A DNA stretch of 64,000 nt from Streptomyces tateyamensis. GTDB taxonomy: Bacteria > Actinomycetota > Actinomycetes > Streptomycetales > Streptomycetaceae. Numbering within the stretch: position 1 is the first letter of the stretch; each line of letters starts with the position of its first letter. A program made the position numbers and the translations under genes. The stretch is taken from positions 1-64,000 of the forward strand of contig NZ_PYBW01000050.1 in NCBI RefSeq assembly GCF_003205575.1, written 5' to 3'. Shown here one piece after another: positions 49,809-64,000 of the stretch. A model generated the notes under the pieces. That model saw nothing but the letters and a program-made list of their open reading frames with translations, did not search any database and was not told the origin of the DNA.

Positions 49809-49823
49809 GGCCGCTCGAACCCG

Positions 49824-50026
49824 CGCGGGAGAGTCCGGAAGTGCCGCTGGCACAGGCCGGCGCCGAAGGAGCAAGTCCTCCCCGGAATCTCTCAGGCACC
49901 CATACCGCGTGGGCGAGGCGAATCTGGAAAGTGGAACACGGCCGTGCCGTGCGCCCACCCACGGTGCAAGCCGCGCCATGCTGGTCGCGGTGAAGCTCTC
50001 AGGTTTGACGACAGACGGGGAGACTC
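49824..50026 (+). ncRNA. Tandem glycine riboswitch
   Basis: Two glycine aptamers in series. The first begins GCGGGAGAGTCC, includes the conserved CGCCGAAGGAGCAAG and ends with GGAATCTCTCAGGCACCCATACCGCG. The second runs from the following GCGAATCTGGAAAG through GAAGCTCTCAGGTTTGACGACAGACGGGGAG. It lies directly before gcvT, where glycine binding normally switches on glycine cleavage genes. The GAAGGAGC and CTCAGG cores are diagnostic of the family. Confidence 0.93.
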
Positions 50027-53185: not shown

Positions 53186-54553
<1,368 letters not shown>

Positions 54554-54600
54554 TCGGACGGTTCCGTGACCGCCTCGCAACGGCCTGTGTCCCCACTCGG

Positions 54601-54680
54601 ATGAATTCCGACCAGCCGATCCCGTAGAGTTTGCGCTCGGTAGGCGTAGCGCTACAGCAGGCCTACGGGATGACACGGTC
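54601..54680 (+). promoter_or_regulatory. Candidate promoter and nested dyad before the kinase/phosphatase/vWA cluster
   Basis: A -10-like TAGAGT lies at 54625-54630. Downstream is a nested dyad: GTAGGC (54640-54645) pairs with GCCTAC (54661-54666), and inside it GTAGC/GCTAC (54646-54655) forms a perfect palindrome. This is operator-like and is the only strong symmetry before the first cluster gene. Promoter quality is modest. Confidence 0.45.
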
Positions 54681-55094
54681 ATGGGGGCGACAGTCATGGA
54701 CCCGATCAGCGCCACCGCTATTGCGGCAGCGGCCATTGCAGCCAAGAGCACTCTCGAAGCGGCGGCCCAGGAGGCAGGCAAAGCCTCCTGGGGTGGCGCG
54801 GCGCGCGTCGTCGAGCGGATCCGGGCCCGGTTCGGCGGGGACCGCCAGGCGCAGCAGGTGCTGGAACGCGCCCAGCGGAACCCGCAGGACGAGTCGGCGA
54901 CAGCACTGCTGCGGGCACTGCTGCAGTCCCTCATGCAGGGCGACCCCGTCTTCGCCGACGAACTGCGCACGCTGGTCGACGACGCGGTAGCCGCCCAGGG
55001 TCCAGCGGGTTCGGCGGTGAACGCGGCCGTGATCAAGAACGTCCAGGTGAACCAAGGCCCGGTCGAGGTCCACGGCGACCTGAACTTCAACTGA
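54681..55094 (+). CDS. Small helical protein with beta-prone amyloid-like tail (cluster gene 1)
   Basis: 137 residues from ATG 54681 (132 if ATG 54696 is used). The first ~105 residues are alanine-rich and helical, resembling small helical domains seen at the N-terminus of actinobacterial conflict-system proteins. The last ~20 residues are beta-prone and polar, with QGPVEVHGDLN at 125-135. The next protein carries the matching spacing Q-x2-V-x3-G-x2-N at 92-102. No enzymatic motif is visible. It could be an adaptor or a regulatory partner for the downstream P-loop protein. It ends 28 bases before that gene. Confidence 0.7.
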   Translation: MGATVMDPISATAIAAAAIAAKSTLEAAAQEAGKASWGGAARVVERIRARFGGDRQAQQVLERAQRNPQDESATALLRALLQSLMQGDPVFADELRTLVDDAVAAQGPAGSAVNAAVIKNVQVNQGPVEVHGDLNFN

Positions 55095-55122
55095 CCGCAC
55101 CGCGAGAGCACTGGTCGAAGAC

Positions 55123-57315
55123 GTGGACACATCTGCCACCCCGCCGACCGACGGGTCGCCGTCCGACCGGACCCCCGGGGCCGCCGCGCCCCCGTCCACC
55201 GGCTCGGCACCGGCTCCGGCGCCGCCCGCCGACGGGCCACTGAGCGAGGCGGACGCGCTGCGTCAACTGGCCGGCACCGTCGAGCCGGACCCGGACCGCG
55301 AAGAGAGCGCACAGGCCGCCGCGATCGCAGGACTGATCGCCGAGCGCCTGCAGGGATCGGCCTCCGGCCTGACCATCGGCACCCTTGCCATGTTCCAGGA
55401 CACGGTCAGCTTCGGCGGCAGCTTCAACGCCGCCGGCCGCTCCGCCGCCGCGGACCACGGGCGCTCCGCACTGGTTCGGATCGAGGCCGACGAGCAGACC
55501 GGTTTCGTCACGCACTTCCTCCAGCCGCCGGGATACGCCACTGCCGCCAAGGTGCTGAGTGAGCGTCACCTTCTGGTACTGGCCGCGCCGCCGGGCACTG
55601 GGCGCGAGGCGGCCGCGGTGAACCTGGTGGCCGAGGCGCTGGCGCTGCACGGCGCAAGCGACGGCGGCACGAGCTATTGGGTCACCGAACCCGAGGCGAT
55701 AGCCGGAACCGACTGGCACCCGCCCCACCAGGAGGCCGGCTACCTGCTGGTGGTCGACGATACCGAGGCGGGCCGCGACTTCACGGCCCGGACCGTGGAC
55801 ACCCACTGGCTGGTCGCCCTCGGAGCCCGGCTGAAGGCCGCCCGAAGCTTCCTGGTGCTGGTCACCGGACCAGCCCGGGGCGCCCTGGCCAGGACGGCGG
55901 ATCGGTCCGATCAGGTCAGGACCGACCTCGGCATGGTGGACCCGGCGGGGGTACTGCGCCATCGGGTCCTTGGCCACCAAGCCACCGACGCAGAACACGC
56001 CCAGCTGGAAAGGCTGTTGGCCGATTCCGGTGCCGCCCGGGCGCTGCGCGAGCAGCCCACTCCCGCCGTGGCGGTGCGGCTCGCCGGTGTACTGCGGGCC
56101 GGGGGCGACCTGGCCCGCGAGGTTGCGCTGGTGCGCGACCCCAGTGAGCAGGTGCACCGCTGGTTCGTCCACCACGATGATCCGGCCACGGTCTGCTTTG
56201 CCCTGGCCGCCGCGGTGCTGGAGGACTGCGGGTACCTCACCGTCGCCGATGCGGCGCTGCGCCTGTATGCGTCGGTGGCCCCGCCGGAGGCTTCGCCGTA
56301 CGGCATCCGGTTCCTGGACCGGCTCGCTCAGGAGCAGCCCTGGATCTCGATCAATCCCTCGGACTCGGCTTCCGGCCCGCCCCGGGTGGCGTTCCGCAGT
56401 GAGCTGATCGGGCAGTCCTTGCTGAGCCACGCCTGGACCTACCAGGACGGGCAACGCGACGCCTTGGTCGGCTGGCTCCGCTCGCTGCTGGTCCACCCGG
56501 ACGTCACAGTGCGGGCCAAGGCGGCGGTGGCCGCCGGCATCCTGGCTTGGAGCGACCACGAGCACGCGGTGCACCGCTTCCTGCGAAGCTGGGCCGGGAG
56601 CGAGGCCGGGCCGGTGCGCCAGGCTGCCGCCAGCGCGTTGACCGTCGTGGCCAGCCGCGCCGAACTGACCGAATGGGTCTGGGACCTGCTGGACGGCTGG
56701 GTCGACGGTGGCCGGTCCACCGTCGACCGGCGGCTCGCCAAGACCGCAGCGACGGCGGTCGGCGGCGTGCTCGGCAAGCATCAACCCCACCGGGCCCTGC
56801 GACTGCTGCGCACCGCGCTGGACTGGCAGGGTGACTGGGGCAACCTGACCACGGTCGCCTGGAGCTGCCTCGCGTTGATCGAGCAGGACCGCGAACGCGA
56901 CGTGCTGACCGCTCTTTTGTCCTGGTCCGCCGCTCAGGACCGATCTCCGATGGTGGCCAAGTCGCTCTCGGTGTTCCTATTCACCGCCGGCCGCACGGAC
57001 TCCGGTGACGGTGTTCCGACTCTGCTCCTGCGGGCCCGTGAGCTGCGACCGGAACTGACCGAGCTGTGGGCCCGCGCACTGGGCCGCCGACCGATTCAGG
57101 ACCAGGCCCTGCCAATCCTGCGGGAGTGGGTGGACTGCTACCGCAAGGACGACCGCACCGCGGCTGAACTGCGCGCGCTGATCGGCCGGGTGGCCGCACT
57201 GCCGGGCAAGCACCGCGAGCGGCTCACCTACTACTTGGACCGATGGTCGCGGGACCGCGACCAGCCCTCCCCCGGCGCTGCGGCGCTGCTCGATGTGGTG
57301 GAACGACTCCCCTGA
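55123..57315 (+). CDS. P-loop-like protein with HEAT-like C-terminal repeats (cluster gene 2)
   Basis: 730 residues from GTG 55123. Residues 1-45 are Pro/Ala-rich and disordered. At 84-102 a beta-prone segment includes QDTVSFGGSFN. Around 151-162 the sequence LVLAAPPGTGRE resembles a Walker A motif with Lys replaced by Arg, and LLVVDD at 208-213 resembles Walker B, so a degenerate or divergent NTPase (STAND/AAA-like) is likely. Residues about 400-700 are helical repeat-like (VRAKAAVAAGILAWSDHEHA, then VRQAAASALTVVASR), consistent with HEAT or similar repeats. Family not identified. The next gene starts 10 bases downstream. Confidence 0.72.
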   Translation: MDTSATPPTDGSPSDRTPGAAAPPSTGSAPAPAPPADGPLSEADALRQLAGTVEPDPDREESAQAAAIAGLIAERLQGSASGLTIGTLAMFQDTVSFGGSFNAAGRSAAADHGRSALVRIEADEQTGFVTHFLQPPGYATAAKVLSERHLLVLAAPPGTGREAAAVNLVAEALALHGASDGGTSYWVTEPEAIAGTDWHPPHQEAGYLLVVDDTEAGRDFTARTVDTHWLVALGARLKAARSFLVLVTGPARGALARTADRSDQVRTDLGMVDPAGVLRHRVLGHQATDAEHAQLERLLADSGAARALREQPTPAVAVRLAGVLRAGGDLAREVALVRDPSEQVHRWFVHHDDPATVCFALAAAVLEDCGYLTVADAALRLYASVAPPEASPYGIRFLDRLAQEQPWISINPSDSASGPPRVAFRSELIGQSLLSHAWTYQDGQRDALVGWLRSLLVHPDVTVRAKAAVAAGILAWSDHEHAVHRFLRSWAGSEAGPVRQAAASALTVVASRAELTEWVWDLLDGWVDGGRSTVDRRLAKTAATAVGGVLGKHQPHRALRLLRTALDWQGDWGNLTTVAWSCLALIEQDRERDVLTALLSWSAAQDRSPMVAKSLSVFLFTAGRTDSGDGVPTLLLRARELRPELTELWARALGRRPIQDQALPILREWVDCYRKDDRTAAELRALIGRVAALPGKHRERLTYYLDRWSRDRDQPSPGAAALLDVVERLP

Positions 57316-57325
57316 GGAGCTGCTC

Positions 57326-58444
57326 ATGACCCAGTTGACCTACGACCCCGTGCTCAGCTGCGTGGACGTCGCGCCGCTGCGCCTGCTGAACCCGCTGCGC
57401 TCACCGGAGCCGGGGCGAGCCCTGGTGCTGGTTCCGCACTCCGGATCAGCCGTCACCGTGCGCCCAGGGGAGAGTGTGCCCTCGGCCCGGTTCGGCGGCT
57501 ACTACAAGGCCTACACGGTGGACCTGACGGACCACCGCCTCGCCCTCGCCATTCCACTGCTGAGCCGGGACGTGTCATTCGCCTTCCAGAGCTCGGTGAC
57601 CCTGACCTGCCGAGTGACCGACCCGGCCGAGGTGGTGGCCCGCGGGATCCGCGACATGAGCGGGGCCCTGTTCGAGGCCGTACGGCGGATCCTGCGCACG
57701 GTCTCCGCCCGGTACGACATCTCGGAGTTCCACCAGGCTGAGCAGGCGCTCAACGAGGCGGTTCGCGGCCTGGACGGTGACGGCGCGATCCGGCTGGCCG
57801 ACATCCACGTCGAGCTGCTGGTGGACGCCGACGAAGCGGCCGGCAGCGGACGCGAGTTCCGTGCGGTGGCGCGGGAGACCCGGCTGGGGTCGATGCGGCG
57901 GCACCGGCACCTGGACATGATGCGCGAGGAGGGGGTCGAGGGCCTGCTTGCCGAGCTGGTGGAGAAGGAGGGGGCGCCGGCGGCGCTCGCCTGGATCGAG
58001 AAGGCCGAGGCCGCTGAGCGAACCGAACTCTTCTCCACGCTGAAGCTGGTACTGGAGCGCGGCGACGCGGAGCGTGAGCCCTACGAGATCGCCGCGACCG
58101 AGAAGTTGGTGATGGAGCGGATGCTCGGCGGCTCCGCGGCACCGTTCGGCGGTACCCGCAGCAGGTTGCGCGGCTCCCTCGCGCTACCTGCCCCCGCCGG
58201 GCTCGAGTCGTCCGCCCCAAGCCACCCGGCAGACCCGGCACCCGACCGCGCGGCGGCGCTGGCGGGCGAGGTGGTCAGCCGCCGCACCTGTGAGCCGCCG
58301 GAGGACGAGCCGGTGGCGCGCCCGGCGTCGACGCCGCCACCGACCGGCGGTGCGCCGGAACCCGCACCCGAGCCGGTGGAGATGACCGCTCCGGTCAGCC
58401 GGGTACGTGGACTGCGTCCGCGAAACGGTGGTGGGGCCCGATGA
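57326..58444 (+). CDS. Band-7/SPFH-like protein (cluster gene 3)
   Basis: 372 residues from ATG 57326, with GAGGAG 6 bases upstream. Residues about 45-190 look like an SPFH/prohibitin-type domain (SSVTLTCRVTDPAEVVARGI, then RRILRTVSARYDISEF). No N-terminal membrane anchor is seen, unlike classical stomatins, so it may act in the cytoplasm as an oligomeric scaffold. The C-terminal ~90 residues are Pro-rich and end in SRVRGLRPRNG, similar to SRVRGIARL in the kinase. The stop overlaps the phosphatase start (ATGA). Confidence 0.65.
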   Translation: MTQLTYDPVLSCVDVAPLRLLNPLRSPEPGRALVLVPHSGSAVTVRPGESVPSARFGGYYKAYTVDLTDHRLALAIPLLSRDVSFAFQSSVTLTCRVTDPAEVVARGIRDMSGALFEAVRRILRTVSARYDISEFHQAEQALNEAVRGLDGDGAIRLADIHVELLVDADEAAGSGREFRAVARETRLGSMRRHRHLDMMREEGVEGLLAELVEKEGAPAALAWIEKAEAAERTELFSTLKLVLERGDAEREPYEIAATEKLVMERMLGGSAAPFGGTRSRLRGSLALPAPAGLESSAPSHPADPAPDRAAALAGEVVSRRTCEPPEDEPVARPASTPPPTGGAPEPAPEPVEMTAPVSRVRGLRPRNGGGAR

Positions 58445-59487
58445 GCACCCCCGCAGCCCTGCCGGCGCTCGCCCCGCCGATTCCGCGTCAGATCGCGCTG
58501 GCACACTGTGAATCGGACTACCTGGCGCTGAGCGTCTGGCTGGAGCGTCGTCCTCAGCTCGGCGAGGACGCCGAGCCGTTGGTGCTCCACCACCGTCCCA
58601 GCGGCAGCGGGCTGCTGGCGGTGTTCGACGGCTCCGGCGGTTCCGGGTCCAGCGCCGCCTGGCAGGATCCACGCGGCCACACCCGCACCGGGGCCTGGGT
58701 GGGCTCCCGGGTGGCCCGGCTCGGAGCCGAGCGCTGGTTCGCCCAGCACGTCGAGCAGGCCGCCGAGCCGGACGCCGAGTCATTGCAGGAGCAGTTGCGC
58801 GACCTGCTGACCCGGGTCCAGTCGCCGACCCGCAGCAAGGTGATCGGTAGCATGCGCCGACAACTGCCCACCACCATGGCGGCGATCAGCTATCGGCCGC
58901 AAACGGGTAGCCATCTGGTCGAAGCGCTGTGGGCCGGCGACTCGCGTGGCTATGTGCTGCGGCCGGAAACCGGACTCCACCCACTGACCCGGGATCACAC
59001 AGAGGAGACCGACGCACTCGTCCAGCTGACCCAGGATCCGCCGATGACCAACGTGCTCAGCGCGGACCGCGCGTTCGTGGTCGCCACCTCCGGCATCCAG
59101 ACGCGCTCGAAGTGCGTGATGATCTGTGCCACCGACGGCTTCTTCGGGTACGTCAGCACGCCCGCCGACTTCGAGCTGCACCTGCTGACGACACTGGCCG
59201 GCGCCGGAACTATGCACGAGTGGGCGCAGGCCCTGGCCGCGCGGGTGGCGACCTACACCGGCGACGACGCGTCGCTCGCGCTGGTGGCGGTGGGCTACCC
59301 CGGGTTCGACGAGCTGCGGGCGACCTTCACGGGGCGGACCCATCAGATCCTCGCGTGGCTGACTCCCCGGCCCGACCCGGATGACCAGGAGCGGATGCGC
59401 CAGTGGCGTGAGCAGCGTTGGGCCGAGTACCGGACGGAATACGAAAAGTTCATGCCGCCGATTCCCGTACCGGAGGAGGAGCAGTGA
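58441..59487 (+). CDS. PP2C-family serine/threonine phosphatase (cluster gene 4)
   Basis: 348 residues from ATG 58441. PP2C metal-site motifs in order: VFDGSGG (DGxGG, residues 61-67), WAGDSRGY (GDSR, 164-171), CATDGFFG (TDG, 229-236) and GDDASLAL (DDxS, 274-281). The N-terminal RxxxNED-type metal motif is weak. It would reverse the kinase's phosphorylations. The start overlaps the previous gene by 4 bases and its stop overlaps the kinase start (GTGA), giving strong translational coupling. Confidence 0.9.
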   Translation: MSTPAALPALAPPIPRQIALAHCESDYLALSVWLERRPQLGEDAEPLVLHHRPSGSGLLAVFDGSGGSGSSAAWQDPRGHTRTGAWVGSRVARLGAERWFAQHVEQAAEPDAESLQEQLRDLLTRVQSPTRSKVIGSMRRQLPTTMAAISYRPQTGSHLVEALWAGDSRGYVLRPETGLHPLTRDHTEETDALVQLTQDPPMTNVLSADRAFVVATSGIQTRSKCVMICATDGFFGYVSTPADFELHLLTTLAGAGTMHEWAQALAARVATYTGDDASLALVAVGYPGFDELRATFTGRTHQILAWLTPRPDPDDQERMRQWREQRWAEYRTEYEKFMPPIPVPEEEQ

Positions 59488-60662
59488 AGAAGGACGGGCT
59501 GGTAAACGGCTACCGTATCGTCAGCTCACCCACCAACGCCGGTGGTGGCAAGTGCCTGTGGGCCTTCGCCGAGAAGGACGACACCCAGTACTTCATCAAG
59601 CAGTTCCTGAAGCCGAAGCGCCCTGGCCCGAGCTCGCCCGGCAGCGAGCAGAGCAAGCGCCGGCGTCTGGCCCTGTGCGAGGAGTTCGAACAGCGCCACC
59701 GCGCGATCATGCGAGTGCTCACCCCGGACATGCCGGGCGGCGGGCACTTGGTTCTCGCCACCGACTTCTTCGCTGCCGGTAGCACCTACTACAAGGTGAC
59801 CGCCCGGATCGACACCTCGACCCTGGACCAGCCGCAGAGCCTCGACCCGCGCCACAAGGCCGTGCTGCTCAAGACCCTGATGGTCAGCCTGCAACTGCTG
59901 CACGGCATCGACGTGGTGCACGGCGACCTGAAGCCGGCGAACGTGCTCATCCAGAAGCAGGGGACAAGCGCCTTCTACGTCGCCAAGCTGATCGACTTCG
60001 ACGACTCCTACCTGAGCGGGAACCCACCCGCCCCGGACGAGATCGCCGGTGATTCGCTCTACGGAGCGCCCGAATGGCTGCGCTACCTCCAGCAGGACCC
60101 GTCGGTGAAACCGCGCGAACTCACCTGCGCGGTGGATATCTTCGCTCTCGGCCTGATGATTCATCAGTACCTGACCGGAGGACTTCCCGGCTACCTGGAC
60201 CGGTACAGCTCGCCGGCCGACGCGCTCAACGCAGGAGCTGAGCTCGTGCTGGACTCCCGCCTGACCGACCAGATGCGCGGCCTGCTCCGGGGCATGCTCG
60301 CGGCCGACCCGCGGGCACGGCCGCGAGTGGGAACGGTGCTCACCGCGCTCAAGGACCCGGAGGTGTGCGAACTGCGGTACCGCCGGCCCGGCACCTCGCG
60401 GTCGGCGGTGCCCCCGCCCTCCGCCCCGGCGCCGGCCGAGGTCACCCATACCACTGGCCCCGGCGAGCTGCCTCTCAGCCGGGTTCGCGGAATCGCCCGG
60501 CTCGTGCCGCCGGAGCTGGCTACCTGTCCGCCGGTCGCAACGGAGCCCGCGGCACCGCCGACGCCCGTCACGCCGCCCGCCCCCGAACCGCCCGGCGCCG
60601 CCACTGAGCCGGAGGCCCCAAAGTCCCGAGTGCGGATCCGCCTGCGCGACCCACGAAGCTGA
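59484..60662 (+). CDS. TerY-P-type protein kinase (cluster gene 5)
   Basis: 392 residues from GTG 59484. Eukaryotic-type kinase fold: VAIK-like Lys39 in FIKQF, HGDLKPAN (146-153) with the catalytic Asp148 and Asn153, DFD at 171-173 in place of DFG, and APE at 195-197. HGDLKPxN and IDFDDS-type sequences are typical of the kinases that accompany TerY-like vWA proteins. After residue 300 comes a disordered Pro-rich tail with SRVRG at 332-336 and a closing SRVRIRLRDPRS. No membrane segment. Coupled to the phosphatase by a 4-base overlap. Confidence 0.88.
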   Translation: MKKDGLVNGYRIVSSPTNAGGGKCLWAFAEKDDTQYFIKQFLKPKRPGPSSPGSEQSKRRRLALCEEFEQRHRAIMRVLTPDMPGGGHLVLATDFFAAGSTYYKVTARIDTSTLDQPQSLDPRHKAVLLKTLMVSLQLLHGIDVVHGDLKPANVLIQKQGTSAFYVAKLIDFDDSYLSGNPPAPDEIAGDSLYGAPEWLRYLQQDPSVKPRELTCAVDIFALGLMIHQYLTGGLPGYLDRYSSPADALNAGAELVLDSRLTDQMRGLLRGMLAADPRARPRVGTVLTALKDPEVCELRYRRPGTSRSAVPPPSAPAPAEVTHTTGPGELPLSRVRGIARLVPPELATCPPVATEPAAPPTPVTPPAPEPPGAATEPEAPKSRVRIRLRDPRS

Positions 60663-60690
60663 CCGCCCTGAGCCAATCGAGGAGTAACCC

Positions 60691-61395
60691 ATGAGTTCCA
60701 CCGACCAGTACCGCGGCAACCTGCAATACGCCGTGGACATCGTGCTGTGCGTCGATGCGACCGGGAGCATGAACCCGGTGCTCGACGCCGTCAAAAACAG
60801 TGCGGCCAGCTTCCACGAGCGGCTGACCACGGTCATGGAGGAGAAGGGCAAGTCGATCAGCCAGCTGCGGATCCGCACCATCGCCTTCCGCGACTTCGGT
60901 GATCAGGTCGACGACGCCATCGAGGCCACCGACTTCCACCAGTTGCCCGAACAGGCCGACCGGTTCCAGTCCTTCCTGCGCGGAGTGGTCGCCACGGGTG
61001 GCGGTGACATCCCCGAGTCCGGTCTGGAGGCCCTGGCGCTGGCGATCAACTCACCCTGGGAGACAGGGCTGGACCGGCGTCGCCACGTGGTGGTCATGTT
61101 CACTGACGCACCCGCGCACCCGCTCGGCGGCCCTCACTCGAAGCTGAACGGCTACCCGGCGGTGGTGCCCCGCAGCCAGGACGCCCTGTTTGAGCAGTGG
61201 GGTTACGCCAAGACCCAGACCGCCGTGATGGAGCAGTCCGCGAAGCGCCTGGTGCTCTTCGCGCCCGACGAGGCCCCCTGGAACGGGATCGGCGAGGAGT
61301 GGGACATGACGCTGCACTTCCCGTCCAAGGCCGGCGACGGCCTTAAGGAGTTCGAGATGACGGAAATCATCGAGACCATCGCGAACAGCCTGTAG
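60691..61395 (+). CDS. vWA-domain protein (TerY-like) (cluster gene 6)
   Basis: 234 residues from ATG 60691, with GAGGAG 6 bases upstream. A single von Willebrand A domain with MIDAS residues: DATGSM (22-27), Thr102 in ATGGGDIPES, and Asp139 in VMFTDAPAH. The third position of the DxSxS motif is Thr and the fifth Met-adjacent, as in many bacterial vWA proteins. In TerY-P triads the vWA protein is the presumed substrate or sensor regulated by the kinase and phosphatase. 28 bases from the kinase. Confidence 0.88.
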   Translation: MSSTDQYRGNLQYAVDIVLCVDATGSMNPVLDAVKNSAASFHERLTTVMEEKGKSISQLRIRTIAFRDFGDQVDDAIEATDFHQLPEQADRFQSFLRGVVATGGGDIPESGLEALALAINSPWETGLDRRRHVVVMFTDAPAHPLGGPHSKLNGYPAVVPRSQDALFEQWGYAKTQTAVMEQSAKRLVLFAPDEAPWNGIGEEWDMTLHFPSKAGDGLKEFEMTEIIETIANSL

Positions 61396-61401
61396 CCCCG
61401 G

Positions 61402-61854
61402 ATGACCGAGCCATATGATCGAGTGAACTGCGACGGAGCCACCCTGACGCTGACGGCCGACATGCTGCGGGTGGCCTTCCAGGACCGTAACGGCCTGCTG
61501 GAGATGCCGCCGTACTGGTGCCGCCGGGTCGACATTCAGGTAGCTGACGATCAGTCGGCGATTCAGATCGTGCTCAGCTTCGCACCCTCGGACGAGGGTG
61601 CGGAGCAGCCGTGCGCGTTCGTTTCGCTCCGACTGCGCGCCGCAGTCGACCAGCTCGACCACGCCCGAGCGCTGGCCGCCCGGGTGCAGCCCGAGCCAGA
61701 ACTGCCGGACGACGAGTCGTCGGTCTTCCTCGCATCGCCCCTCGGCCGGGTACCGCCGGACGATCCCGACTGGATCTGCTTCAAGTCGCCCGCGGACTCC
61801 GAGGAGCTGTACACGGCTGTCATCGAGCACCTGGCAGTCCGCACCACCGATTAG
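61402..61854 (+). CDS. Unknown small protein (cluster gene 7)
   Basis: 150 residues from ATG 61402, 6 bases past the vWA gene stop, so part of the same transcript. Predicted mixed alpha/beta and soluble: alternating hydrophobic strands (GATLTLTADMLRVAFQ, then WCRRVDIQVADDQSAIQIVLSF) followed by a helix-rich end. The pattern is reminiscent of PH-like bacterial domains, but I cannot assign it. Four cysteines are not arranged as a zinc site. Confidence 0.6.
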   Translation: MTEPYDRVNCDGATLTLTADMLRVAFQDRNGLLEMPPYWCRRVDIQVADDQSAIQIVLSFAPSDEGAEQPCAFVSLRLRAAVDQLDHARALAARVQPEPELPDDESSVFLASPLGRVPPDDPDWICFKSPADSEELYTAVIEHLAVRTTD

Positions 61855-61884
61855 GTCCGGGAACACTCGGGGAGGGCAACGGTA

Positions 61885-63033
61885 GTGGCAGGTCCGACGT
61901 GGCAGTGCGCCGACTGCGAGACGTACAACGAGCCCGGCAGGATCAACTGCATGGTCTGCGACGCCGCTCGGCCGGCCGCGGCCAGGCCCTCGCCCAGGAC
62001 GACTGGGCCCCGGACCACGGCGGCCAGGACCGCAGCATCCAAGACCACGGCATCCAAGACCGCGACGGCCAAGAAGGCGACGCCGACCAAGACCGCGGCC
62101 GCCAAGGCAGCCCCCGAGAAAACCGCCCGCCCGTCCGCAGTCGTGCCGAAAGCCGGTTGGACCTGCTCGGAGTGCGGCACGAACAACAGTGCCACGGACC
62201 TGAAGTGCATGGTCTGTGACACACCCTGGCGGGCCACTCCTCGCAGAAAGCCGTCGCCGGCCAAGGCAACGCCGCCTTCCAAGAAGGCCGCGCCGCCGCG
62301 CCGGGCCCCGGACGTGGCGGGGCCCGCAACCCGCGCCAGCTCCGCCAGCCCCTGGACCACCGCTGCACCGCCGCCCAGGACGCCCAGGAGCCCAGGCACC
62401 TCGACGAAGGGCCTCTTCTACGCGCCCCCACCCAGCACGGGGTACATCCCGGAGGCGGCCGCCGCCCCGAGCACCCCCCGCCCTGCCGCCCCGCCGCCCC
62501 GCGGCGGCCCCTCGCCGTACAGCCCACCGGGCTCCCCCTTCCGCCCCCCGACGAGTTACCCGGCCCCGAAGAAGCGGAGTCGGTGGGGATCCAAGCTGGC
62601 AGTGCTGCTGGTGCTGGGGGCGCTCGCCTACTCTGTCCTGCAAGTGCTCCACACAGCCGGGTCCCGCCACGGCGCCCCCTACGGGTCGGCCAGGGGCTCC
62701 GGGACGCCAAGCGCACACGCGGCCACCGCGTGTGCGCAGCGGATCGCAAGCCAGCTGCCGAACGGCTCCGGCGCGGAGCTGGTGACCGCCTACCGCACCA
62801 GCAACAAGCAGATCACCCTCTGCCGCACGGGCGGGGGAACCCTGTACTACTTCGGCGAGTTCACCGGACGCCCGGACACCGGGCTCGCCATGCCCGCGAC
62901 GCAGACGGCCGACGGCTTCACCGCTGACAACGGCCCGTACCACTACCGGATCAGCGGAAACACCGTCACCGTGACCGAGAACGGCAAGCTGATCGGCCAG
63001 GAACAGCTCACCGCTGTCTCGTCCCCACAGTAG
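61885..63033 (+). CDS. Membrane protein with two RanBP2-type zinc fingers (cluster gene 8)
   Basis: 382 residues from GTG 61885, with GGGGAGGG upstream. Two zinc fingers match W-x-C-x2-C-x3-N-x6-C-x2-C exactly: first with W6, C8, C11, N15, C22, C25; second with W92, C94, C97, N101, C108, C111. Between them is a Lys/Thr/Ala-rich linker, and after them a long Pro-rich region. One membrane segment (about 237-255, LAVLLVLGALAYSVLQVL) is followed by an external ~125-residue domain. The fingers would face the cytoplasm. This topology is unusual for bacteria and suggests a membrane-tethered receptor or anchor for the kinase/vWA system. Confidence 0.8.
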   Translation: MAGPTWQCADCETYNEPGRINCMVCDAARPAAARPSPRTTGPRTTAARTAASKTTASKTATAKKATPTKTAAAKAAPEKTARPSAVVPKAGWTCSECGTNNSATDLKCMVCDTPWRATPRRKPSPAKATPPSKKAAPPRRAPDVAGPATRASSASPWTTAAPPPRTPRSPGTSTKGLFYAPPPSTGYIPEAAAAPSTPRPAAPPPRGGPSPYSPPGSPFRPPTSYPAPKKRSRWGSKLAVLLVLGALAYSVLQVLHTAGSRHGAPYGSARGSGTPSAHAATACAQRIASQLPNGSGAELVTAYRTSNKQITLCRTGGGTLYYFGEFTGRPDTGLAMPATQTADGFTADNGPYHYRISGNTVTVTENGKLIGQEQLTAVSSPQ

Positions 63034-63050
63034 GCGGGACAAGACGCGGG

Positions 63051-63599
63051 TCAGCGTTCGCGGATCTTGAGCTCGAACCAGACGCCCTTGCCGCGGGGGA
63101 GCAGGTCGGCTCCCCAGCGGTCGGCGAGGGTGTTGACGACGACCAGGCCGTTGCCGTACTCGGCTCCCGGTTCGGCGACGATGAGGCAGGGCAGGGCGCG
63201 GGAGGAGTCGCGGACCTCGATGCGCAGCCAGCCGGGGCGGCGCAGCATTCGCAGGCCGATGGTGCGCCCGCCGGTGTGGCGCACCGCGTTGGCGACCAGC
63301 TCGGCGGTGAGTAACTCCACCACCTCCACCAGGTTGGTCAGCCCCCAGGAGCGCAGCACCGAGAGCACCAGCTTGCGGGCCAGCGGGCCGGACTCGCCGC
63401 GCGAGGGCAGCCGCACCTCCTGGTTGCCGGCCGGATCGCGCAGCCGCGGCAGCCCCGCCCGCTCGAGTTCCCACGGGGTGAGCCGCTCCAGGGCCGCGAG
63501 CGCCGACCGCCCAGGCTCCGGCGGAGCGTCGGCGGCGGCGCCGCGATTGAGAAGTGCTGACTGATCGACTTCGCCCCATCCCGCCATGCGCACCATCAT
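63051..63599 (-). CDS. RsbW-like ATP-binding (HATPase) regulatory protein
   Basis: 182 residues from ATG 63599; starts at 63644 (GTG) and 63587 (ATG) are also possible because none has a good ribosome site. The HATPase domain keeps the N box VVELLTAELVANAVRHTGG and the DSS segment (RIEVRDSSRALP) of the G1 box, then GNGLVVVNTLADRWG. Many Streptomyces carry dozens of these small anti-sigma-factor or antagonist-like proteins. It converges on the cluster and is probably not part of it. Confidence 0.85.
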   Translation of the reverse strand: MMVRMAGWGEVDQSALLNRGAAADAPPEPGRSALAALERLTPWELERAGLPRLRDPAGNQEVRLPSRGESGPLARKLVLSVLRSWGLTNLVEVVELLTAELVANAVRHTGGRTIGLRMLRRPGWLRIEVRDSSRALPCLIVAEPGAEYGNGLVVVNTLADRWGADLLPRGKGVWFELKIRER

Positions 63600-63682: not shown

Positions 63683-64000
63683 CTACCAGGTGCTCCAGGG
63701 CATGTTCCAGCCGCTCAGGCCGTTGTCGGGGGCCACCTGGTCGCCCTTGGAGTTGACGACCTTCACCACATCTCCCACCTGGGAGGCGTCGTAGAACTTG
63801 GCCGCGGGGGTGTCGGTGCCGCCCTGGTCGCCCGGGGCATCCTCCAGGCCCACGCAGCCGTGGCTGACGTTCACGGAGCCGAAGGTGGCGTGCGAGGACC
63901 AGTTGTTGCCGTGCACGTAGGTGCCCGAGTCGGTCAGCCGCATCGAGTGCGGCACCTGGAGGTCGTACTCGCCGGGCTTGAGGCCCGGCACCGAGGCCGA
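63683..64000 (-). CDS. L,D-transpeptidase (YkuD domain), C-terminal part
   Basis: Only the last ~105 residues are in the window; the gene continues past 64000 and its start is not visible. The YkuD catalytic motif is present: His in YVHGNNW and Cys in NVSHGCVGLED. Such enzymes make 3-3 cross-links in peptidoglycan outside the membrane. The residue after CV is Gly, not the Arg found in many YkuD proteins. Ends at TAG (63683-63685). Confidence 0.9.
   Translation of the reverse strand, partial: SASVPGLKPGEYDLQVPHSMRLTDSGTYVHGNNWSSHATFGSVNVSHGCVGLEDAPGDQGGTDTPAAKFYDASQVGDVVKVVNSKGDQVAPDNGLSGWNMPWSTW

Follow-up and report, generated by a model that had tools for sequence, protein, structure and literature searches.

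A conserved eight-gene island in Streptomyces tateyamensis with a kinase/PP2C/vWA set, a STAND-like protein and a motif-matched, exchangeable neighbour gene

We consider an island of eight genes (A to H) at positions 54681-63033 of a 64,000-nucleotide stretch of Streptomyces tateyamensis DNA (contig NZ_PYBW01000050.1), referred to below as the window. The eight-gene unit is a conserved, mobile accessory island. It encodes a small helical protein (A), a STAND-like NTPase with a HEAT solenoid (B), an SPFH/Band-7 scaffold (C), a PP2C phosphatase (D), a Ser/Thr kinase (E), a vWA protein (F), a fast-evolving protein (G) and a transmembrane (TM) protein with zinc ribbons (H). Three features had been overlooked by the initial annotation of this DNA: a motif matched between A and B, the exchange of the gene at the position of A, and an SRVR motif common to C and E. 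Combining them, we propose that the island may be a membrane-anchored, phosphorylation-gated relay in which matched-motif templating activates an effector, a reading to which we give an even chance. Such a relay would probably serve immunity or controlled cell death.

A conserved and mobile island

In the nearest relative with an empty site (genome G005), the interval between the convergent sdaA and HATPase genes measures 97 bp, versus 8501 bp in the window. The flanks of the two genomes are 91% and 88% identical and the blastn alignment breaks at 54553/63055, which bears out the earlier suggestion of an accessory system inserted between core genes. No terminal repeats are evident at the insertion ends, just chance matches of 7-9 bp, and neither an RNA family nor a promoter consensus was found within the island. 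In genome G004 the island lies about 2.9 Mb away from the HATPase orthologue, and the genes that flank it vary from clade to clade.

The vWA protein F is present in 6 of 150 genomes of the family (at E 1e-30) and in 3 of 396 genomes of the phylum (at E 1e-40). Searching 84,980 species genomes with the vWA profile yields 57 loci, or 59 when the window and a Calothrix plasmid are included. All eight genes stand in order at 23 of these 59. B occurs at 38 loci, every one of which also has C (38/38); 33 of them have A, and five have a different gene at its position. Many Streptomyces show the same gene order, and versions of it with substitutions are found in Actinomadura, Nonomuraea, Amycolatopsis and Actinokineospora. 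Dozens of genomes repeat both the order and the content of the gene set, which is far beyond chance. The check on co-occurrence that the initial annotation had called for therefore comes out in its favour: the genes travel together, and neither of the outcomes it had named as counting against it (genes separately distributed, or a triad individually unrelated to TerY-P families) is what we observe.

The island also occurs in reduced forms. Eight Streptomyces loci with intact upstream sequence (L013, L020, L021, L023, L026-L028 and L047) consist of C-H or D-H and are without A and B; many class-2 or D-H-only loci stop at contig edges and are therefore left out of this count. The eight loci indicate that A and B form a cassette added to a C-H/D-H core. 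The bare vWA/PP2C/kinase set, with no further island genes, is found in Calothrix, Herpetosiphon and one Bacteroidetes genome. The PP2C of the Calothrix triad (L002, 12190-15315) carries about 750 extra fused residues. In Frankia and Pseudofrankia (L054, L056, L060) the vWA gene is solitary, with no kinase or phosphatase nearby.

A motif matched between B and the product of an exchangeable gene

The tail of A (consensus IKNAQVFNEKVEIKGDWN) and a segment of B just ahead of the NTPase (IGTLALFNDTVSFGGGF) have a pattern in common. When the alignments of whole A and whole B are compared by hhalign, with no bias toward either segment, the top match falls exactly on the two motifs (P 7e-4). Within the aligned B segment, pairs of A tail and B from the same locus have a mean score of 30.4, whereas shuffled tails reach 17.9 (z 20); over the first 190 residues of B the z value versus shuffles is 13, and for the remaining tail/N-terminus pairs tested in the operon |z| stays below 2. 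Across 12 divergent loci the own-locus pairs score above mismatched pairs (p 3.6e-4), so that the two motifs co-vary. In the AlphaFold2 model, residues 86-114 of B have a predicted local distance difference test (pLDDT) score below 50 and are predicted to be disordered.

The pair in the window is weak by itself, and the case for the motif rests on the homologues. A profile of the A motif by itself does not find B significantly among 7035 open reading frames (ORFs), and the reverse search is weak; the evidence for the claim is therefore that of the full-alignment, shuffle and pairing tests.

The gene ahead of B, which we regard as the effector position, is exchangeable. Protein A has a hydrophobic N-terminal stretch by hydropathy and matches no Pfam family. 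In Actinomadura, Nonomuraea and Streptosporangium a winged helix-turn-helix (wHTH)-BTAD module is fused in front of the A domain (BTAD E 1e-25 to 1e-33), and in Amycolatopsis and Actinokineospora a TIR protein takes the position of A (TIR_2 E 1e-9 to 1e-12). The BTAD-A and TIR proteins have a C-terminal motif that resembles the B of their own locus. In six of six loci (L030, L042-L044, L046, L049) the BTAD-A gene is preceded, roughly 2 kb ahead of B, by an XRE-type HTH gene encoding about 300 residues; its C-terminal part is DUF5753-like by eye, and it resembles the HTH partner of DUF397 systems.

The exchange extends to distant B-like genes, which are preceded by a class III cyclase-like gene (profile match to solved cyclases, 3.5e-6) and followed by an SPFH gene. 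Their tags are again matched in a locus-specific manner (p 1e-5, nine loci). In both sets of loci own pairs score above mismatched ones, as with GGDQHGVSGGRVTGDVVLGGS versus GGDQHGVSGGHVTGDVILGGS. VWA_2, PP2C and kinase-like genes follow in at least one of the distant loci, L085. The loci L081-L090 belong to this broader family of class III cyclase-like, B-like STAND/HEAT and SPFH genes, with near-identical tag pairs in L083; this type may form a larger undescribed group than that of the window.

Components of the island

The eight ORFs are all on the + strand, as annotated at first (Table 1). The 4-base overlaps reported with them hold for two of the seven junctions (C/D and D/E), and the other five are gaps of 28, 10, 28, 6 and 30 bp. 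The start of C is placed at the ATG at 57326 because the codon at 57323 is CTC.

Table 1. Positions of the island, its genes and their motifs in the window.
Feature	Coordinates	Strand	Basis
Inserted segment, 8501 bp, between convergent sdaA and HATPase genes	54554..63054	.	blastn of window vs L108 (genome G005)
A, 137-aa helical protein, hydrophobic N-terminus, C-terminal motif, effector position	54681..55094	+	33 homologues in loci
A-tail motif IKNVQVNQGPVEVHGDL, residues 118-134, matched to B motif	55032..55082	+	motif comparison
B, 730-aa STAND-like NTPase and HEAT solenoid	55123..57315	+	nSTAND3 16/26, HEAT_2 21/26 homologues
B N-terminal motif IGTLAMFQDTVSFGGSF, residues 85-101, predicted disordered	55375..55425	+	motif comparison, AlphaFold2
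Degenerate Walker A of B, PPGTGREA, Lys to Arg	55585..55608	+	homologue alignment
HEAT repeat region of B	56401..57303	+	homologue profiles and AlphaFold2 model
C, SPFH/Band-7 scaffold, long helices, disordered tail	57326..58444	+	Foldseek to prohibitin, HflK/C, stomatin
SRVRG motif, C tail	58397..58411	+	42/44 homologues
D, PP2C phosphatase, metal-binding motifs intact	58441..59487	+	PP2C_2, motif counts
E, Ser/Thr kinase, proline-rich tail	59484..60662	+	Pkinase 3e-20
First SRVR motif of E (SRVRG)	60477..60491	+	motif search
Second SRVR motif of E, near C-terminus	60624..60635	+	SRVR in tail of 39/54 homologues
F, vWA protein, MIDAS-type DxTxS	60691..61395	+	VWA_4 7e-9
G, fast-evolving conserved protein	61402..61854	+	iterated HMM homologues between F and H, ~40 loci
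H, two N-terminal RanBP2-type zinc ribbons, one TM helix, conserved C-terminal domain	61885..63033	+	Pfam, hydropathy
Predicted TM helix of H	62596..62652	+	hydropathy 2.1 over 19 residues

The description of B as a P-loop-like HEAT-repeat protein agrees with the matches of its homologues to HEAT_2 and nSTAND3 (best nSTAND3 match 1.2e-7), and its AlphaFold2 model has a mean pLDDT of 82.9. In the degenerate Walker A motif G160 is invariant and R161 nearly invariant across homologues, many relatives having PPGSGRE. Fold matches of B to SAMD9 and to the PP2A scaffold are rejected, the similarity being at solenoid level only; no viral fold match to B falls below E 0.001, and profile searches of the PDB with A and B gave nothing convincing.

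Protein C, annotated as band-7-like, matches Band_7 weakly by sequence (1e-4) and has a predicted fold that matches prohibitin, HflK/C and stomatin (Foldseek 1.6e-8). The PP2C_2 match of D (1.5e-4) is under the Pfam cut-off, and its metal motifs are intact in nearly all homologues. The HGDLKxxN motif of the kinase is kept in 52 of 54 homologues of E, and the DxTxS motif in 58 of 59 homologues of F. The SRVR motif is found in the C-terminal tails of both C (42/44) and E (39/54), against 10 occurrences among the 301,038 residues encoded by other genes; the C tail compared with the E tail gives z 8. It is a candidate phosphosite or docking site.

No family could be assigned to G, which keeps its place between F and H. 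The two RanBP2 fingers and the membrane location first proposed for H are seen again as two zinc ribbons (Pfam 2e-12) and a predicted TM helix. The profile of the zinc-ribbon region of H matches Sulfolobus ArnA (5a8i, E 2e-7), either an archaeal parallel or a mere common zinc ribbon; ArnB, the partner of ArnA, is a vWA protein.

Around the island, a glycine riboswitch (RF00504, 64 bits) is found at 49816-49917 (+) of the window, upstream of gcvT-gcvH-glyA-sdaA, and the L,D-transpeptidase gene at 63683-64000 has tandem paralogues nearby in relatives (L108, L109).

A possible relay, its alternatives and related systems

In the direction of signalling that we infer, kinase E and phosphatase D would together determine how far the SRVR sites in the C and E tails are phosphorylated, with the vWA protein F and protein H (zinc ribbons, TM helix) serving as reader/adaptor and envelope link. 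A trigger, such as infection or envelope damage, would shift the E/D balance, and the B molecules clustered by C would be released and oligomerise. The clustered N-terminal motifs of B would then nucleate a beta-rich, probably amyloid-like assembly, which would recruit the similar tail of the protein encoded upstream (A in the window; the TIR, wHTH-BTAD or cyclase-like protein in relatives). The effector would thereby be activated; for A, membrane damage or dormancy would be the most likely result. In its widest form the proposal is a new class of relay for immunity or cell death in actinomycetes: a kinase/PP2C/vWA switch on an SPFH scaffold would gate a STAND-HEAT protein, and prion-like templating would fire interchangeable effectors (helical, TIR, cyclase-like, BTAD) via locus-specific matched motifs. 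Stated that broadly it is tentative, and we would lean somewhat against it.

Several observations weigh against templated activation in an immune role. The degenerate Walker A motif of B makes ATP-driven oligomerisation doubtful. The A/B match of the window is not significant when taken alone, its best local alignment (score 20) missing the motif. The own-locus excess becomes marginal (p 0.034) when B is represented by its first 190 residues and the comparison is limited to loci that have an A homologue, most of them from closely related Streptomyces. The eight loci that keep C-H or D-H suggest that the phospho-switch is useful without the A/B output, and the BTAD variants hint that in some lineages the role is transcriptional.

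The same relay can be drawn with another mechanism, in which the A/B motif is a heterotypic beta-strand docking peptide, not an amyloid, and B holds or releases the effector tail stoichiometrically. The shortness of the motif and the degenerate NTPase would suit such docking, which predicts the common motif and its co-variation equally well. Docking pairs, however, are usually complementary and not alike; A and B bear the same pattern, as in homotypic amyloid templating (PMC7889193, PMC8086366), and we regard docking as somewhat unlikely. The island could also be a developmental or envelope-stress regulator. Switch and scaffold would then act as a membrane sensor, and the result would be membrane remodelling or gene regulation in place of immunity. 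Such a role would account for the wHTH-BTAD fusions to the A domain in three genera, for the zinc ribbons linked to a TM helix in H and for the SPFH scaffold; it fits poorly with the TIR effectors of Amycolatopsis and Actinokineospora and with a very patchy distribution (6/150) at differing chromosomal sites, and is in our judgement unlikely.

What remains is a strict TerY-P system, that is, a metal-sensing phospho-switch tied to nucleic-acid processing or tellurite resistance. The three enzyme types are the same, E matches the TerY-linked kinase of R478 (hmmsearch 8e-8), and the sister B/C loci have a VWA_2, PP2C and kinase-like set. Against this, F is TerY-like in the vWA fold only: the R478 TerY proteins give no hmmsearch match to the F profile and an hhalign probability of 46 at best. 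E gives no zinc ribbon or OB match, its tail being low-complexity with SRVR, and the unit has no ter genes or nucleases. We find a strict TerY-P system very improbable and reject membership on the F subfamily and the E fusion; of the TerY-P triad first annotated, the kinase/PP2C/vWA set is real, and the name holds as an analogy. The PADLOC labels obtained for the kinase (MkoA, MAD6, PD-T4-6) are rejected as generic, the R478 kinase yielding the same names; PADLOC is uninformative for TerY-P here, with no specific match even for the R478 triad.

If the templated relay is correct, NLR-type amyloid signalling and kinase/PP2C/vWA switches, two themes described separately, meet in a single conserved operon. 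Its specificity is directly testable through the locus-specific tag pairs, and the switch can be told apart from the output by comparing the modular loci that have A/B with those that lack it. In a literature search that was mostly open-access, we found no description of amyloid signalling and a kinase/PP2C/vWA switch joined with SPFH and HEAT parts.

The separate parts resemble several known systems. Like the TerY-P triads (Anantharaman 2012 and Gao 2020, in PMC11090510), the island has vWA, PP2C and Ser/Thr kinase genes together in an accessory unit. It differs from them in that its vWA protein is of another subfamily, and the zinc ribbon or OB fold carried by TerY-P kinases is missing from E, zinc ribbons being found on the separate TM protein H. 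The kinase, PP2C and standalone vWA combination is an actinobacterial theme described with GAP1-N2 GTPases (PMC7159879), where the three are likewise adjacent, the kinase catalytic and a membrane link provided with zinc ribbons; none of our eight genes has a GAP1 or GTPase Pfam match, and here a STAND/HEAT protein and its tag-matched effector form the output. The iSTAND ternary systems (PMC7159879, PMC8195603) are similar in having a degenerate STAND, a vWA protein and TIR or other signalling domains on the N-terminal side. They differ in that no MoxR or AAA match is found among the eight genes, and the N-terminal signalling domain is here a separate protein joined by the matched motif; they are also reportedly almost absent from actinobacteria (PMC7159879, PMC8195603).

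The closest parallel for A and B is with the bacterial amyloid signalling pairs of filamentous bacteria, which are defined by a STAND protein whose motif matches that of an exchangeable effector encoded next to it (PMC7889193, PMC8086366). In these BASS/Bell systems (Dyrka 2020, via the same sources) the genes are adjacent, the motif is matched between the effector C-terminus and the STAND N-terminus, the effectors are exchangeable and include TIR, and the hosts are filamentous actinomycetes, all as in the island. The Bell domain is a helical bundle with a hydrophobic helix, against which A offers a hydrophobic N-terminal stretch and no Pfam match. The known pairs consist of an NLR (NACHT or NB-ARC) with a Bell or TIR/CHAT effector, whereas B resembles nSTAND3, has HEAT repeats and carries a degenerate P-loop, and the island adds the SPFH protein, the kinase, PP2C, vWA, G and H.

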